From: Isoetes taiwanensis
Taxonomy: Eukaryota > Streptophyta > Lycopodiopsida > Isoetales > Isoetaceae
Assembly: GCA_021234155.1 (NCBI GenBank)
Contig: JAJEKV010000187.1
Span: 310,001 to 374,000, forward strand
Direction of reading: 5' to 3'
DNA: 64,000 bases
Shown here: positions 5,141-44,181 of the stretch, one piece after another
Position numbering within the stretch: position 1 is the first letter of the stretch
How the letters are laid out: every line of letters starts with the position of its first letter
Notes under the pieces: generated by a model
What the model saw: the letters and a program-made list of their open reading frames with translations, nothing else
Told to the model about the DNA's origin: nothing
Database searches by the model: none
Program-made: the position numbers and the translations under genes

Positions 5141-5439
5141 TGTTGCAAAGAGAAATCAAGTGTCTATTGATGTAATGAACGGAACAAGCGTATAGGTAAA
5201 CGAGAAGGCAAGCGCTGGTCGCTATGCCGCATTTATTGCAACTTCGAGAAAAGCTTGGAAAACTATAGCTTGATCTGTTTCTTGAATAGATCAAGCTTTA
5301 CAACGGCTACTGCTAATAATAGAAACTATGAACCAAGAAATGAGTTGAGTAGTTTGTTAACTACTCGAGATCTTCATTGTTGCTGACAGCTTTGTCTTGT
5401 TCTGTAAGTTTGTTAGTATCCAGAACAGTATCAGCAACA
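5141..5439 (-). repeat. Copia 3' LTR (left copy)
   Basis: 299 bp, TGTTGC to GCAACA. It differs from the right copy by scattered substitutions and small indels, concentrated between about 5185 and 5240. Confidence 0.9.
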
Positions 5440-6404
5440 CCCCCACTCAGTGACAGTGAGAGATCTGGACCCCCACTCGAAAAGAGACCAATAGCCATGA
5501 TGAATTTGCTGTGCTTGGGTCGAGCAAGTGCTTTGGTAAGCATGTCTGCGGGCATTTCATGGGTGGGACAATATTTTAGGGAGATGATATGGTCGTTGAC
5601 AAGATTACGTATGAAATGGTATTGAATGTCAATGTGCTTGATACGGCGGTGAAGGACAGGATTTTTAGCAATGGCCATGGCTCCTTGGTTATCAACATGA
5701 ATGAGAGTATGAGTGGTGGCAGTGAAATGGAGTTCAAGACAGAGTCGTTGGAGCCAAATGGCTTCTTTGGAAGCATGACTGAGTGCAACATATTCAGCTT
5801 CTGTACTAGAGAGGGAAATGCAGGATTGTTTGGAACTGTTCCAGCTAATGGCTCCGCCAGCAAGTAAGAATACAAAGCCTGAGATGGATTTACGATCGTG
5901 ATGATCACTAGCCCAATCGGCATCAGATAACCCTTCGATAGGAGTGGTGGAGTCAGCAGAATAATGAATGCCATGGGTAAGAGTACCAGCCAGGTAGCGG
6001 AGAACACGTTTCAAAGATGCACAATGGGAGTTTCTGGGATCAGTGGAAAACTGAGACAATTTGCAGAGGGGAAGGGCAAGGTCTGGACGAGTGGAGATGG
6101 CAGCGAAGTTGATCATTCCGAGAAGGTTCCTATATTGTGCTTTGATGGATTGAAGGGCAGGACTACAGGGTGGATCATCGGGAAGGAGATGGAGGCCAAA
6201 TTCAAGGGGTGTGTACACAGGATTGCAGGTCTGCATGTGAGCTGTGGAGAGGATATCAGCAATGTATTTGGACTGAGTAAGGGCAAGTGTACCAGCTTTT
6301 TGATTGTATGCAATTTCGAGCCCAAGGAAGTAATGGATGCAGCCGAGGTCCTTCATGAAAAACGGAGTTGAGTTGGGACTTGATAGAGAGAAGATCATCC
6401 ACAT
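5361..6404 (-). pseudogene. Copia RNase H / C-terminal polyprotein
   Basis: A 347-codon open frame covering the end of the reverse transcriptase and RNase H. Visible landmarks are the connection segment LGLEIAYNQKAG, the RNase H signature SDADWASDHHDRKS, the carboxylate motif SSTEAEYVALSHASKE and, further on, DNQGAMAIAKNPV then KHIDIQYHFIR. These are the standard Ty1/copia RNase H residues. The frame starts downstream of the catalytic YVDD motif, which lies in the neighbouring frame (6256-7194), so a frameshift separates the two parts. The last residues read into the LTR, as is usual. It acts in reverse transcription, degrading RNA in the hybrid. Confidence 0.88.
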
Positions 6405-7366
6405 AACAAAGAATGCTCAGGAAACTTGGTTGCAGTCGAAAATAGACACTGGGATCTGCGTTGCTGCGTTGAAATCCAAACTGGAGAAGACTTTGATCAA
6501 GACGAGTATACCAGGACCTGGAAGCTTGACGAAGGCCATAGAGTGCCTTATGTAACCTGCAAACTTGAGTAGGATCAGAGGAGTGAAAGCCAGGAGGTTG
6601 CTCAAGATAGACTTCCTCATGTAAATCGCCGTTGAGAAAGGCATTAGTGACGTCCATTCGGTGGATATGGTAACGATTCATGGTGGCATGAGCTAGAATG
6701 GTCCTGATAGAAACCATGCGAGCAACAGGAGCATACGTTTCCTCAAAGTCAACACCTTCGATCTGATTGAAGCCACGAGCAATGAGGTGTGCCTTGAACC
6801 GAGCTATAGAACCATTGGGGATGGGTTTTGATCTTGTAAACTCATTTACAAGAGACAACAGGGCGATCCGAGGGACGCGGAACAAGAGTCCAAGTATGAG
6901 CAGCATGGATGGAATCAATTTCCTCTTGCATGGCACGGGTCCATTCCTCTTTGTAGGGACTGTGAGTGGCGTGAAAGTAGGAGACTGGGTCTGCAGGTAT
7001 AGTCTGAGACAAAAAGGTGTAATCAGCAGCCCATGCTGGTGGTTTGTGAATGCGTGTAGGACGAGACGGAGGAGGAGACAACGGGGGATCTGATGGGGGA
7101 GTGGCAGAGAGTGAATCAATGGAAGGGGAAGGAGAGGCTGGGGAATTGGAGGGTAAAGGGGAGGAGGGTTCAGGATTAGGAGGGACAGGCACAAGAGGAG
7201 GAATGATGGTAGTAGGCAATTCTAGGAGGACCAAATCGGGAGGAAGAGGAAGGTGATGGCAAGGCAGATGTTCTTGGAATTTGACATGGCAGCTTAAGAT
7301 GAGTCGATGGTGATGCAGGTCATAAAGGCGATAGGCCTTGCTGGTGAGGGAATAGCCTAAAAACAT
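6256..7366 (-). pseudogene. Copia reverse transcriptase
   Basis: Two overlapping frames, 6842-7366 and 6256-7194, together give the linker and the reverse transcriptase. The first has a long proline/serine-rich linker (PLPPDL to PPPSRPTRIHKPP), then the conserved W(T)RAMQEEIDSI entry. The second continues with ARFKAHLIARGFNQIEGVDF, TYAPVARMVSIR, the palm motif MDVTNAFLNGDL, KALYGLRQASRSWY and the catalytic CYVDDLL. These are canonical copia RT landmarks. The frame switch between the two pieces, and another to the RNase H frame, mean no continuous polyprotein is encoded. Confidence 0.88.
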
Positions 7367-7997
7367 GCAAGGAATGGCTTTAGGAGCAAGTTTAGAGGAT
7401 GGTTGGGGAGGTGGACGTATGCCTGGCAGCCTAAGACACGCAAGTGATGGATGGAGATGGGCTTACCAGTCCAAGTTTCTTCGGGGATCTTATTGTCAAT
7501 GCTGCGGTGAGGAAGATGATTGAGGAGATAGACTGCGGTATGAGCTGCTTCACCCCAAAATTTGATGGGAACGTTCATGCCAAATAAGAGAGTGCGCATC
7601 ATCTCCAAGATGGTCCTGTTTGCACGTTCAGCCCGCCCATTTTGCTCCGGGGAGTAAGGGACTGAAAATTGATGTTGGATACCATGAGTGGCGCAATACT
7701 GCTGAAATATACGAGAGCTAAACTCGCCGCCTCCATCTGTTCTAAGAGTTACAAGCTTGTGTCCACTCGATTCGTTTTGCGGCGCTCAGCCCACCCATGA
7801 AAAGTGGTGAAATGAGAGAAAACATCACTTTTGTAAGACAAGAGATAAATGAACAATTTGCGGCTATAATCATCAAGGAAGATGAGAAAATATTTGCTGC
7901 CACCAAAGGTTGGAACAGAAATTGGTCCGCATAAGTCACTGTGAACAAGTTCCAGTGGCTTGGTGGCACAAAGATGTTCGAGATGGGAAAGGAGCAA
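7357..7997 (-). pseudogene. Copia integrase core
   Basis: Two pieces in different frames. 7749-7997 has ELVHSDLCGPISVPTFGG and FLIFLDDYSRKLFIYLLSYK, the first two acidic-motif blocks of the integrase core. 7357-7608 has KFWGEAAHTAVYLLNHLPHR and HLRVLGCQAYVHLP. Between them (about 7610-7740) lies the expected ENGRAER-type segment with the third catalytic acid, reached only by frame changes. The HHCC zinc segment is just upstream in frame-broken form. The integrase would insert the cDNA into the host; this copy is broken. Confidence 0.85.
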
Positions 7998-8086
7998 ATG
8001 AGTGATTTTGGTTTAAGACATGTAGAACAAGAGGTGTTTGCATGGGGAATTGAAGAGAAATGACCACGGAAGCAAGAATCAGTAGT

Positions 8087-8776
8087 TTATAGTGGGCAGG
8101 GGTGACCAAGGCGAAAATGCCAAAGATCAGGAGGAAAGGAGGATGTGGAAATGCAAGCATGTTCAGGTGGAGAGACGAGATCCAGACGATACAAATTACC
8201 AATCCTTGTGCCAGTAAGGATGATGTTGTTGTGGGCATTGAGCACTCTACAGGTTTCAGACATGAAATGGACGTGAAGGCCTGCAGAGGTAAGTTTGCTG
8301 ACCGAGATAAGCTGCTTGTGTAAACCAGGGACGTGGAGAACATCAGGAATGAGTTTCTGTGCACCAGACTTAAGGGAGAGGAGAATGTTGCCAGTGGCAA
8401 TGCCTTCTTGAGGATTGTTGTCGCCCATGAGAACAGAACGTGGACTGGAGAGGACCTTGTACGTGGTAAAAATGTGGCAAAAAGGGGTCATATGCGAGGT
8501 TGCTCCAGAGTCCAGGTACCATGCATGGTCAAGATGGGTCAAAGGAACGTCCTGGACATGAAAAAGAAATTCAACGGGTGAGTCCGGAGTATTCAAAAGA
8601 GGAGGGAGGTCACCTTGTTCTTGAGCCATGTTTCCATGCTCAATGGAGGGACGTTTAGAAACTGGAGCAGGAGCAGTACACTCTTTTGCAAAATGGCCTA
8701 TCTTCTCCGCATCCGGTAGTAGAAGTGACAAAGTACGGATCGATTTTGGAACGGCGAGGAACTTTGTTTTCAGCAA
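8087..8776 (-). pseudogene. Copia zinc knuckle remnant, protease and pre-integrase domain
   Basis: A 229-codon frame. Near the start, KIGHFAKEC is the second half of a CCHC knuckle; the first cysteines are lost by a frameshift. The aspartic protease active site follows as WYLDSGATSHMT (DSGA). Further on, ISVSKLTSAGL and GNLYRLD are typical of the GAG-pre-integrase region, and WHFRLGHP begins the HHCC segment. The protease would process the Gag-Pol polyprotein. Confidence 0.87.
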
Positions 8777-9419
8777 CCATGACAGAGTCTGAAGATGATT
8801 TGGTCTTGCCTTGCCTTAAGGCTTCAGCTTGAATGCGATCAATTGTGGCCTCAAAAGTATAGTCTGACAGCCGGCCTTCCAGATTGATAATGAGCCCTTC
8901 ATATGAACGAGGGAGACTGTTGAGGAGGAGGCAAACCTTTTCATCATTGGTGATCTGTACCCCAGTGGCATCAAGATCATCTAACATGGCTTTCAAGCGA
9001 CATATATGGGAAGTGACATCTCCTCCTTCAGAAAGGTGGAGTTCATACAAGGATTTCCGGAGTGCAAGGCGATTTCCTGCCATTTTGGAAGCATAGTGAT
9101 TGTCAAGAAACATCAGCATTTCACTTGCAGTTCTGGCTTCCTTAACCAGTCTTGCAGGTGTGTCACCCAGGCTAGTGCAAATTATCAACCGAGCCTTGCG
9201 GTCCTTTTCAACAGCATCATTCGTCTCATCCAAGACGATCTCAATAGTACTATTACCAGAAGAATCAGGAGCCAAATTTGGCACAGAAGTGATATTCCAG
9301 AGGTTCTTGTCCTCTAAAATCATTTTGAGTCGCCAACGCCACATCTGATAGTCCCTGCCCTCAAAGCGAGGCAGAAGACGCCATTCAGATGAAGGTGGAG
9401 CATTCAGAACAGAATCCAT
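8655..9419 (-). CDS. Copia gag
   Basis: 254 codons starting MDSVLNAPP, the first long frame after the 5' LTR. WRLLPRFEGRDYQMWRWRL near residues 13-31 and later LLNSLPRSYEGLI are hallmarks of the copia Gag (UBN2-type) capsid family. It would form the cytoplasmic virus-like particle. The frame is open over the whole capsid part, then shifts just before the zinc knuckle, so the Gag-Pol fusion cannot be read without a frame change. Confidence 0.88.
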   Translation of the reverse strand: MDSVLNAPPSSEWRLLPRFEGRDYQMWRWRLKMILEDKNLWNITSVPNLAPDSSGNSTIEIVLDETNDAVEKDRKARLIICTSLGDTPARLVKEARTASEMLMFLDNHYASKMAGNRLALRKSLYELHLSEGGDVTSHICRLKAMLDDLDATGVQITNDEKVCLLLNSLPRSYEGLIINLEGRLSDYTFEATIDRIQAEALRQGKTKSSSDSVMVAENKVPRRSKIDPYFVTSTTGCGEDRPFCKRVYCSCSSF

Positions 9420-24775: not shown

Positions 24776-27700
24776 TTAATGTAGTCTCGTCATCTCCTCC
24801 ACTTGTTTACATAGTTCTTCAACGGAGACATCCATTGCTCTCGAAATCTCTTCCATTCTGCTTCTACTCAAATCAAGGAAAGACTCAATCAAATCTCCAT
24901 CAAGAAAGTTCTTCGAATCCACAGTCTTCCGCTCATTGCTAAATGAACGCCACTGTTCGTGGCTCAGTCCACCAACACCTTTAATAACCTTAACAAGGTT
25001 CTGCTGTAATTTCTGAAGAAAGAGATATTGTTCTTGAGGAAGAGATGCTATTACACCAATAACTCCATTTACAGTGCCAAAAATAACTGTTGGAATTTGA
25101 CTGACTTCACTGTCAGGCAAGCGCATGACCAATGAACCATGCCTGAACCTGTTGACAAACTCTCCCAGATGGTATTCGCCAACTACTTCCAGGCGACCTC
25201 TCTCCTCATCCGTCGCAGCATCACTGTTTTTTCTTACAGTAAACAAATTAAAGCTGTTTTCTGCACCCAAATAGATATCATCGTCAAGAATCTCCACTGC
25301 AGTCATCCAATTCGCACTATAATCACGTGCTCTTTCTTCAATGGACCCTTCTTCAGGCTGTAACATCACCACAAAATTCTATCAACCACCCAAAAGTCAA
25401 AATTTCAAAGAACATAAACAAGATAATGAAAAGACCTTATAAATCAGCAACGAAATCGATTTCATCAAGTCCCCAACAACAATAAAATCACCACGTGATT
25501 GAACATAAAGTGCCAAAATATGTCCATGGTGTCCACATTCGGGTGAAAGCTCATGAGTACCATCATCTCGCAAAGTCCACTTGTATAACTGAATTTTCTG
25601 ATTGATACCAGCAAGAAGCTTCCCATTGAACGCATTCAAGTTATAAACAGCACCTTTGGTCTCCTTCTCGGCCACTAGCTGAAGCTTGCCATCCTCTACA
25701 ACAAAGACGAGTATTCTTCCCTGCAATTCCATAAATAGTGCTACAAATAAATCCAAGTAACAGAAACATGTTTTTAAAAAGAAGAGAAGGGACAGAATTC
25801 ACCTTTGTCGGTTCATTTTCTTCAGGAAGAGCATATGCCGTCCCAACACAATAGTAAACATTATTATCATCCGTGAAAGAACAGGTGATAATTGAGCAGC
25901 CATTTTCGTATGTGTCCAGTGGATAAGAAGCTACTTTTTCAAATGTCTGATCATCTAATAGCCGGAGAAAGTGCGTTTCAATGTCTTCACCTGTCGACAG
26001 ATTGTGAGTATATTTGACACTTGTAATTGCAAACGTTCTAGAGTGCTCCTGATGGCATATTCGACGAGGATGTTCCCCAAGTGGAACAGTACGAATATGG
26101 AGCTTTTGAATATCATCAATTGTGCCAATTGTAAGTTCCCCTTCTTTCCCTATTGCAAGGCTGTGCATCATATCCTCATGTTTAAATTATTTGAAGAAAG
26201 TGGCATTACAGAAAGTTCTTAAAAAAGGACCTACCTATCTGGAAAAGAGGCTGAATTGAAGGAGCACATGTGATTGACTTCCTTTAGATTAACATTACTG
26301 TAAAGCAGCTTCTTATTGCTGCTATAAATCACAGTTGGCCTGTCTGATGCTGCAAATACATGAGTTGCATTTTTGGAGCGAAAAGTACGAAGTATAATTG
26401 GCTGAGTTCCCAAGGATATCTTTTTCCTATCTGATAGAAGTCCCGTATCAACATCAACAATGAAATTGAATAGATGGCCATCTCCAAGAGCACATAGAAG
26501 ATAAGGCACCTGCAGGTGAAAAAAAACAAACATTACTCGTATCAAAGAATATGAAATTTAATCTGTGGCACTAAATGCCTACAACCAACGTGATAATTAG
26601 CATAAGAGTTTCCTACATACCCCTTCAAATGTACAAAAGAGCACAGATCGTGGAATGATTTCCCCTCCAAGACTCTCTGTAGTAATGACCTCAAGGTTAG
26701 GAAGTGAGAAAACATATACACTGATGTCTGTCCACATCCCGACTGCAGCCAATTGACTGCGCTCAAGATCATTTCCAATTGGATTTATGTCCAAACATGA
26801 GATTTCATAATCCAGTTGAACATGTTTCACCTCAGTCAATGTTCCTTGCCCGATCTCAATATATACAAGATTACCACCACCAGTTGCAAGTAAAACCTGC
26901 AAACAAAACATGTTCTCCAAAATAAATGAACAGCGACCACTTTCTCTCAGACCAGTCTATGATAGAAACAAACCTGCGAGGCATTCGCAGTAGCCACATT
27001 AATTGAAATACCAGGTGGTGCCTTCCATTCCCTCAATTGCCTGCGGGAAGCTGTATCTACAAGCCTCAACGACCCTGCAGTAACCTGATCGTTGGAAACT
27101 TTGGCGCAGTTAACAACCATTAAAGAAACAGAAGCAAACCTTGATATAGCCAACCATTTTAATGACCTATGGCAGACTTTCTTTGTCTAAGCATGACTGA
27201 TAAATCTTAATATGCGAGAAGTAATACTAAACCTCATAAGTGTCACTTTCCTTCAGATAGTAACTTCACAATCTCTCCCTTCCCTATGGATACTGGACAA
27301 AAGCTATGTGCGTTCTCACACATATTTTAAGAATGATTCACCACCTAACTTACTTGTCAAGTAAGACATAATCCTACTTGTCCTTTAAGCAATAATAGAA
27401 ACTTTTCAATGCAGCCTACTTTGCGGCGCGCAAGACTATAAAGTGAATATAAAAGTTGGCTCGTTCCCACCTGCACAAGCTGATCATGTATTGCATTGTG
27501 GCAGAATAGAGTTTGAGCTTCAGAATCAAAGCCATCAATTTCTGTTTCTTCCAGCTCATCATCTGTGTTCATCGCCAAGATGCGAGTTTCACTTATAAAG
27601 CTGACAACCAGAAAAGTATCATAGGCATCTCTTGAAGAAGCTCGTAAAGACCACATCCCTTTTATTCCCTGTAATTCAGCAGAGGCCTGAAAGCAACTAA

Positions 27701-43325: not shown

Positions 43326-43491
43326 TGTTGGAGTATGTGTAATGGGCACACATGAAGAATGACTTCGATGGAGGAGTCTTGAAAGCCCATCAATGGGCGG
43401 TAGCTCGATGGTAGAGTACTTGGCTTGCAAGCAAGAGGTCTGGGTTCGATCCCCCCTGTCCACCCAATCATAGAAGGCTCATTTCTCAACA
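43326..43491 (+). repeat. TRIM LTR 1
   Basis: 166 bp with inverted TGTTG...CAACA ends. Contains GTAATGGGCACACATGAAG, then the tRNA-like segment, then AATCATAGAAGGCTCA. Intact on both sides. Confidence 0.8.
43395..43465 (+). tRNA. tRNA-like sequence in TRIM LTR1 (Ala-UGC-like, degenerate)
   Basis: 71 nt from GGGCGGTAGCTC to GTCCACCC. A box-like TAGCTCGATGGTAGAG, anticodon-arm CTTGG-CTTGCAA-GCAAG (anticodon TGC after T33, with one stem mismatch) and B box GGTTCGATCC are visible. The acceptor stem pairs G-C at three or more positions but has a C-A mismatch, and the T stem is poor. It is more likely a pol III promoter or tRNA-derived module than a working tRNA. Confidence 0.45.
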
Positions 43492-43504
43492 TGGTATCCG
43501 AGCC
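43492..43504 (+). other. TRIM primer-binding site
   Basis: TGGTATCCGAGCC immediately after the CA end of LTR1; one mismatch to the initiator-Met PBS. Confidence 0.7.
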
Positions 43505-43683
43505 ATGGTCCCAAGTAAAGGGTGCTTAACCGCACCGGGATAGTCCCCATGGTGTAGGGGTGAGAATGAGCAAAGCTTGGCGATGGAAAGCCCAACTCCC
43601 TTGATGTGGTGGAGTTGCCCGAGGAGGGGAGCATGTGGATTGTGGTGAAGGCTGGAATGGATTGGTGTGCCCATTAAGGGGAA

Positions 43684-43841
43684 TGTTGGGTATGTGTAAT
43701 GGGCACACATGAAGAATGACTCGATGGAGGAGTCGCCGAAAGCCCATCAATGGGCGGTAGCTTCGATGGTAGAGTACTTGGCTTGCAAGCAAGAGGTCCC
43801 GGGTTCGATCCCGACTGTCCACCCAATCATAGAAGGCTCAT
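43684..43841 (+). repeat. TRIM LTR 2 (3'-truncated)
   Basis: Matches LTR1 from TGTTGG through AGAAGGCTCATT, with small indels. The last eight or so bases are missing, replaced by copia LTR sequence. Confidence 0.78.
43752..43824 (+). tRNA. tRNA-like sequence in TRIM LTR2 (Ala-UGC-like)
   Basis: 73 nt, the second copy. It has one more base in the D-arm region (TAGCTTCGATGG), and a better T stem (CCGGG-TTCGATC-CCGAC, four of five pairs). The anticodon arm is identical to the LTR1 copy. Confidence 0.45.
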
Positions 43842-44181
43842 TATATAGCCTTTACACATGTCATGTAGAAGCAGCATGAAGCAACAAATGGGAAACCATG
43901 CATGCGGGCATGGCATGCGGAATATAGTTGCATCGCGGGCATGGCGGATAGTATAAGAGGAGACTCACGGAAGGCGAGAAGAAGGTGGAGAGAAGCAAGG
44001 AAGCGGTGCATCCTGGGTGGAACAATCAAGTGATTGGATTGAAGGTGAAGTGGCTGAATTGCGGGTGGCTTTAGGTGGAGTCTTGTTTATGCTTGAAGGG
44101 ATAGAGCTTGGGCTCGGCTGTACATACAGCAGAAAGAGTGCGGCTGTGGCTACAAGCCAGAGTACTGCTAAGAATCGAACA
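43842..44181 (+). repeat. Copia 3 left (5') LTR, start truncated
   Basis: Ends GAACA one base before the PBS. The first bases (TGTTGCA) present in the right copy are missing at the junction with the TRIM. Confidence 0.8.

Follow-up and report, generated by a model that had tools for sequence, protein, structure and literature searches.

The question raised by this locus is what a tRNA-like sequence does in the long terminal repeats (LTRs) of a miniature retrotransposon. The locus lies in a window of 64,000 nucleotides, which is the whole stretch of DNA that was analysed (positions 310,001 to 374,000 of contig JAJEKV010000187.1, assembly GCA_021234155.1), from the quillwort Isoetes taiwanensis. 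An initial annotation made from the letters alone, hereafter the sequence-only reading, had recognised a terminal-repeat retrotransposon in miniature (TRIM) whose two LTRs each contain a tRNA-like module, and the programs ARAGORN and Rfam support this structure in each of them. In our view the locus likely holds a TRIM of the Helenus type, which would cycle by means of an RNA polymerase III (pol III) promoter in the LTR module and of proteins supplied by Copia elements. The tRNA module in the LTR seems to be under selection, most likely as a promoter.

The element and its family in the genome

The TRIM copy occupies positions 43326-43842 of the + strand, on which all of its features lie, and consists of two LTRs, a primer binding site (PBS), a polypurine tract and a non-coding interior. 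The 5' LTR (43326-43491, 166 bp, TGTTGG...CTCAACA) is directly repeated by the 3' LTR (43684-43842); the boundaries were set from the sequence together with family copies that have target site duplications (TSDs). The sequence-only reading had ended the element at 43841 and estimated an interior of about 180 bp. Its structure stands, but the 3' LTR match runs to 43842, where it stops 8 bases (TCTCAACA) short of the end of the family LTR, and the interior measures 192 bp (43492-43683). The first 8 bases of the family LTR, TGTTGGAA, are missing from both window LTRs. The interior begins with the PBS TGGTATCCGAGCC (43492-43504), identified by a pattern match and by alignment of interiors, which we take to be of the initiator-Met type. 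It ends in the polypurine tract AAGGGGAA (43676-43683), read from the sequence immediately 5' of the 3' LTR. Among the open reading frames (ORFs) of at least 150 amino acids that were listed, none overlaps the interior.

The tRNA-like modules lie at 43394-43463 in the 5' LTR (43393-43465 according to ARAGORN) and at 43751-43822 in the 3' LTR (ARAGORN 43751-43825). Both are read as Ala with the anticodon TGC, and each matches the Rfam tRNA family RF00005 with 42.8 bits (E about 1e-5). The 5' LTR module has the box A variant TAGCTCGATGG and the box B GGTTCGATCCC. These are the only two tRNA calls that ARAGORN made in the window, in agreement with Rfam. RF00005 was the sole family that Rfam found in the window, where no match to 5S rRNA reached the gathering score.

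The sequence-only reading would have been undermined by few or no further copies in the genome; instead, hundreds of matches were found. In the assembly of 1,658,258,908 bases in 1110 contigs, patterns for the tRNA core (at most 2 mismatches), for the core of the U3 region of the LTR (at most 3) and for the end of the interior (at most 3) gave 347, 386 and 206 matches, respectively, which may include haplotype duplicates of one insertion; each reversed control pattern gave 0. The copies that we read come from 30 loci retrieved through their similarity to the LTR and from 70 regions located with the interior pattern. After exclusion of 11 duplicate or unrelated loci and of LTR matches covering less than 141 query positions, 148 LTRs were kept, 145 of which span the module.

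A complete family LTR is typically 177 bp long (TGTTGGAA...TCTCAACA), the interior about 193 bp and the whole element about 547 bp. Two-LTR copies are mostly close to this length, i.e. below 1 kb and thus of TRIM size. A purine tract precedes the 3' LTR in all 17 aligned interiors, and the PBS TGGTATCAGAGCC is present in 12 of the 17 and changed in the remaining 5. The outer ends of both LTRs were available for 28 pairs, of which 4 adjoin array units; among the other 24 elements, 21 are flanked by an exact 5-bp TSD, 1 by a TSD with one mismatch and 2 by none. Solo LTRs with TSDs were found at loci L016 and L020. In 10 of 51 LTR pairs the two LTRs differ by no substitution (gaps uncounted), so the family has moved recently. 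At three loci (L083, L087 and L100), in regions of 1.5-2.5 kb, TRIM copies form tandem arrays and have interiors lengthened by tandem repeats within them. Near-identical flanks surround the copies L002 (contig C1054) and L017 (contig C76), which differ partly at CNG sites; they may represent a single insertion present on two haplotypes, with such differences as are expected of haplotigs with miscalls, and both were retained in the counts.

The module is common to the family. ARAGORN called a tRNA in 112 of the 145 LTRs, 108 times as Ala-TGC, and in none of 145 shuffled LTRs, which together with the empty reversed patterns places the structure beyond chance. The box A sequence TAGCTCAGTGG is exact in 103 of the 145 LTRs and GGTTCGATCC in 109. 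All 8 LTRs of four little-diverged copies chosen by hand score 62.2-62.3 bits against the Rfam tRNA model, and two tRNA-Ala loci of the host score 59.1 bits. The module resembles tRNA-Ala(UGC) of the host, the only isotype compared, but differs from it, also in the T loop.

By comparison with these copies, the window copy is unrepresentative of its family. The box A motif TAGCTYGATGG and the PBS variant on which the sequence-only reading drew are both present in the window and both atypical. Leaving out nine variable columns, 17 of the 20 scored LTR differences of the window copy from the majority lie at CNG triplets, which span 22 of 177 positions. At the loci other than five that we judged error-prone by eye (L002, L003, L009, L010 and L018), the CNG share is 261 of 771 differences. 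The PBS variant TGGTATCCGAGCC alters the CAG of TGGTATCAGAGCC, and the box A variant of the window is also of the CNG kind. Nanopore miscalls at methylated CNG sites are the likeliest cause, and genuine mutation is less likely. The genome report describes nanopore reads from a v9.4.1 flow cell that were polished with short reads (PMC8566536).

Two kinds of locus were sought and rejected. Among the matches listed, 85 were exact for the tRNA core, 34 of these had no exact U3 core nearby, and 19 of the 34 were fetched as candidates for a free-standing module, i.e. a short interspersed nuclear element (SINE) or a tRNA gene; all 19 carry LTR sequence outside the module, in L128, L130 and L131 almost solely 3' of it. 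Conversely, 90 listed matches were exact for U3, 39 of these had no exact tRNA core, and 20 out of 29 of the latter were fetched as candidates for LTRs without a module. Of the 20, 16 agree with the module at 44 or more of its 72 positions; in the remaining four (L150, L151, L153 and L154) the module is absent or reduced to the initial 14-25 nt, as would fit truncation. Most of the 347 core and 386 U3 matches lie outside these two checks.

Probable constraint on the tRNA-like module

The module could be a neutral passenger. On this reading, an ancestral LTR took up a tRNA pseudogene, the alternative that the sequence-only reading had offered, or part of a SINE a single time, and the insert has since been copied without serving a function. 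A single ancestral capture is likely, and in the 19 fetched core matches the module was met only together with LTR sequence. The two LTRs of an element bear on this reading, since a site at which they differ has changed after insertion and a non-majority base common to both is mostly inherited, although gene conversion between LTRs could imitate inherited variants. Over the 51 LTR pairs, with gaps excluded and array pairs included, the ratio of inherited to post-insertion variants is 18:147 in the module and 155:141 in the rest of the LTR (odds ratio 0.11). Post-insertion differences affect 4.1% of cells in the module and 2.8% elsewhere in the LTR; the module is thus not a mutational cold spot. 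Inherited variants affect 0.5% and 3.1% of cells, respectively. Within the module, variation is absent from the lineage of active copies.

The depletion persists when distinct alleles are counted once (13:68 in the module vs 41:76 in the rest, p 0.003), in the 37 pairs that came from the interior pattern (13:128 vs 121:113) and in the 36 young pairs that remain once the error-prone loci are set aside (9:43 vs 111:49). When a block of 72 columns is moved around the LTR as a circle, 6 of 177 placements, the module's own included, equal or beat that of the module. Columns with an inherited variant in at least 3 elements number 1 of 72 in the module and 13 of 105 outside it (p 0.009). Because inherited variants avoid the module and post-insertion changes do not, the module is probably not a neutral passenger. 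The 8 LTRs of the four little-diverged copies, which outscore two tRNA-Ala loci of the host, also speak against capture without function. We therefore regard the passenger reading as very unlikely. The sequence-only reading had further asked whether box B is conserved above the neutral rate; box B was not taken alone, and boxes A and B jointly are depleted of inherited variants (10:51 vs 155:141 in the rest of the LTR).

Several observations weigh against selection on a promoter as the whole explanation. Variants shared by descent inflate the p-value at the level of cells, for which reason the column test is fairer. The best-scoring block begins 6-8 columns downstream of the module start. Sites that belong neither to CNG triplets nor to CG account for the depletion (2:67 vs 145:115), which does not reach significance at the sites that do (16:80 vs 10:26, p 0.22). 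Raw substitution frequencies amount to 3.9% in the T arm with box B, 4.9% in the 5' acceptor strand and 4.6% in U3 plus tail, and only the D arm (2.5%) and the anticodon arm (1.2%) are lower; that part of the module is not below U3 in this respect would suit a passenger. Finally, constraint on the remainder of the module (8:96) equals or surpasses that on boxes A and B (10:51), so it exceeds the needs of a two-box promoter.

This last point favours a reading in which the module acts as an RNA fold, in processing, strand transfer, packaging or movement, with transcription by RNA polymerase II from U3. The majority module forms 19 of 21 standard cloverleaf pairs, which are still paired in most copies, and in 136 of the 145 LTRs the discriminator is followed by CC, which hinders tRNase Z. 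On the other hand, two stem mismatches are kept, namely C-T at pair 5 of the acceptor stem (129 of 141) and G-G at the last pair of the anticodon stem, which closes the loop (139 of 144). In addition, the RNAfold minima of the module, alone or with flanks, are not cloverleaves; the energy computed for a cloverleaf is unreliable, as it includes two non-standard pairs. Such a role for the fold in place of a pol III promoter is unlikely in our judgement. It is also unlikely that selection acts on the module as a complete tRNA-like RNA in addition to its use as a two-box promoter. In that case the repeat region (R) of the transcript would be or contain a folded tRNA-like domain recognised by tRNA enzymes of the host, excision would be prevented by the mismatches and the CC, and the tRNA would fix the promoter as well as the ends of the RNA.

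A further alternative takes the LTR modules for working tRNA-Ala(UGC) genes that feed the tRNA pool of the host. It agrees with the Ala-TGC calls, with a G3-U pair in 136 of 141 modules and A as the majority discriminator base, and with an Rfam score that equals or tops those of the host tRNA-Ala loci tested. It is at odds with the two kept stem mismatches and with the scarcity of terminators: a run of four or more T (T4) is absent from 49 of 51 elements and present in 2, while all three host tRNA-Ala loci read have such a run soon 3'. Moreover, a tRNA-Ala segment already finds 218 matches in the host (at most 3 mismatches), and excision by RNase P and RNase Z would cut the element's own RNA. 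We regard this reading as extremely unlikely. Because the little-diverged copies tested reach the scores of tRNA-Ala loci of the host, LTRs of this family can inflate counts of tRNA genes in such genomes. Genes for tRNAs also form dense arrays on contigs C926, C232 and C66 (L116, L117): the C926 piece repeats a unit of tRNA-Ala(TGC) and tRNA-Trp about every 1.26 kb, and the C66 piece holds three tRNA-Ala(AGC) and one tRNA-Ser.

A proposed cycle and its probable Copia partner

Selection on the module as a promoter, most likely, leads to the following proposal. The tRNA module of the 5' LTR would serve as an internal type-2 pol III promoter with box A TAGCTCAGTGG and box B GGTTCGATCCC, and the transcript would start immediately upstream of the module, near a CAA that is conserved in 137 of at least 146 LTRs, and read through the interior into or beyond the 3' LTR. 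We infer pol III transcription and mobilisation by Copia, and also read-through, because nearly all sampled elements are without T-run terminators. With the promoter inside the transcribed repeat, every new copy would obtain it in both LTRs. Reverse transcription would be primed at TGGTATCAGAGCC, and the cDNA would be made and integrated, with 5-bp target duplications, by the proteins of an autonomous Copia element that shares the LTR ends and the PBS of the TRIM and has a similar purine tract.

Complete boxes A and B, scarce T4 runs and the depletion of inherited variants all fit a pol III promoter in the LTR. As to the second of these, the absence of T4 is weak evidence: the copies are related, shuffles lead one to expect about one run per element, and runs of A4 are also below shuffles (38 vs 96). 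Given the relatedness of the copies and the low number of A4 runs, we do not accept T4 avoidance as a proof of pol III transcription.

The helper of the TRIM is probably a Copia element, judging from shared cis-signals. An autonomous partner was sought in nine regions that surround matches to the PBS pattern. In L104, L105, L111 and L112 the likeness to the TRIM is limited to the PBS or to short words; two of these four were extended as L118 and L119. L118 (contig C293) is a Copia element with two LTRs (TGTTGGAA...TTCTCAACA), the PBS TGGTATCAGAGCC and the tract GGGGGA, and thus shares cis-signals with the TRIM. Two points lessen its weight. Its reverse transcriptase piece matches RVT_2 with E 1.7e-5 and 25 bits, under the Pfam cut-off of 31.6 bits, and LTR ends and a PBS of this type are common among plant Copia elements. 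L118 and L119 are at most candidates for the helper.

Other features were noted in passing. In the window, Copia remains with matches to RVT_2 and to a Copia-type gag lie at 5361-9419 (- strand), and two exon-like ORFs matching CPSF_A, DDB1-like by eye, at 24776-26171 (- strand). Elsewhere in the assembly, the 11-Mb contig C1052 (L031) carries rbcL with ACG in place of the start codon, presumably as expected for a plastome with heavy RNA editing. The small contig C840 (L032) holds a very AT-rich plastid-like segment in which rbcL looks different from the C1052 copy, starts with ATG and is followed by a tRNA-like sequence and then, by eye, accD; it is possibly plastid DNA from another organism left in the assembly.

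Comparison with known systems

Like tRNA-derived SINEs, the quillwort element is short, non-autonomous and provided with a tRNA-derived internal promoter sequence; unlike them, it has LTRs, a PBS, a polypurine tract and 5-bp TSDs, which are features of the reverse transcription and integration of LTR elements. With Cassandra it shares the TRIM structure, a module derived from a pol III gene in each LTR and the occurrence of tandem arrays, but Cassandra LTRs hold 5S rRNA sequence, whereas Rfam found tRNA only in the quillwort window. Ajax, likewise a TRIM, has in its LTRs a module presumed to act as a pol III promoter; it is derived from 5S rRNA and was reported in two nemerteans (Kojima 2024, PMC10886601).

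The sequence-only reading knew of no named family with this design. It exists as Helenus, a group of TRIMs with tRNA-derived LTR sequence in fungi, animals and plants (Kojima 2024, PMC10886601). In that report, the sole plant host is Selaginella moellendorffii, with an LTR of 120 bp and an interior of 85 bp, tRNAs are predicted for some bivalve and fungal families, and pol III transcription is unproven for Helenus as well. Gao et al. 2016 described TRIMs in Selaginella, and the word tRNA is absent from the main text of their paper. Among the papers listed for Helenus, TRIMp3 and Isoetes TRIMs, no report of the quillwort family was found. As Helenus is already named, we place the family there as what looks, by its structure, like a new member.

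The quillwort family agrees with Helenus in the tRNA-derived sequence of its LTRs and in 5-bp TSDs, which are the criterion for plants, and with fungal Helenus in its Copia-like cis-signals. From the Selaginella element, compared by description and not by sequence, it differs in its longer LTR and interior. While Kojima 2024 (PMC10886601) emphasises conservation of the box regions and deems a tRNA function unlikely, the depletion of inherited variants in the quillwort family spans the module. The comparison of LTR pairs thus provides evidence for selection on an LTR tRNA module, and the constraint may extend past the two promoter boxes. Because the family was active recently and has hundreds of LTRs in an extant plant, it also opens the proposed TRIMp3 class of pol III-driven LTR elements to experiment, and Isoetes is what looks like the second plant host of Helenus.
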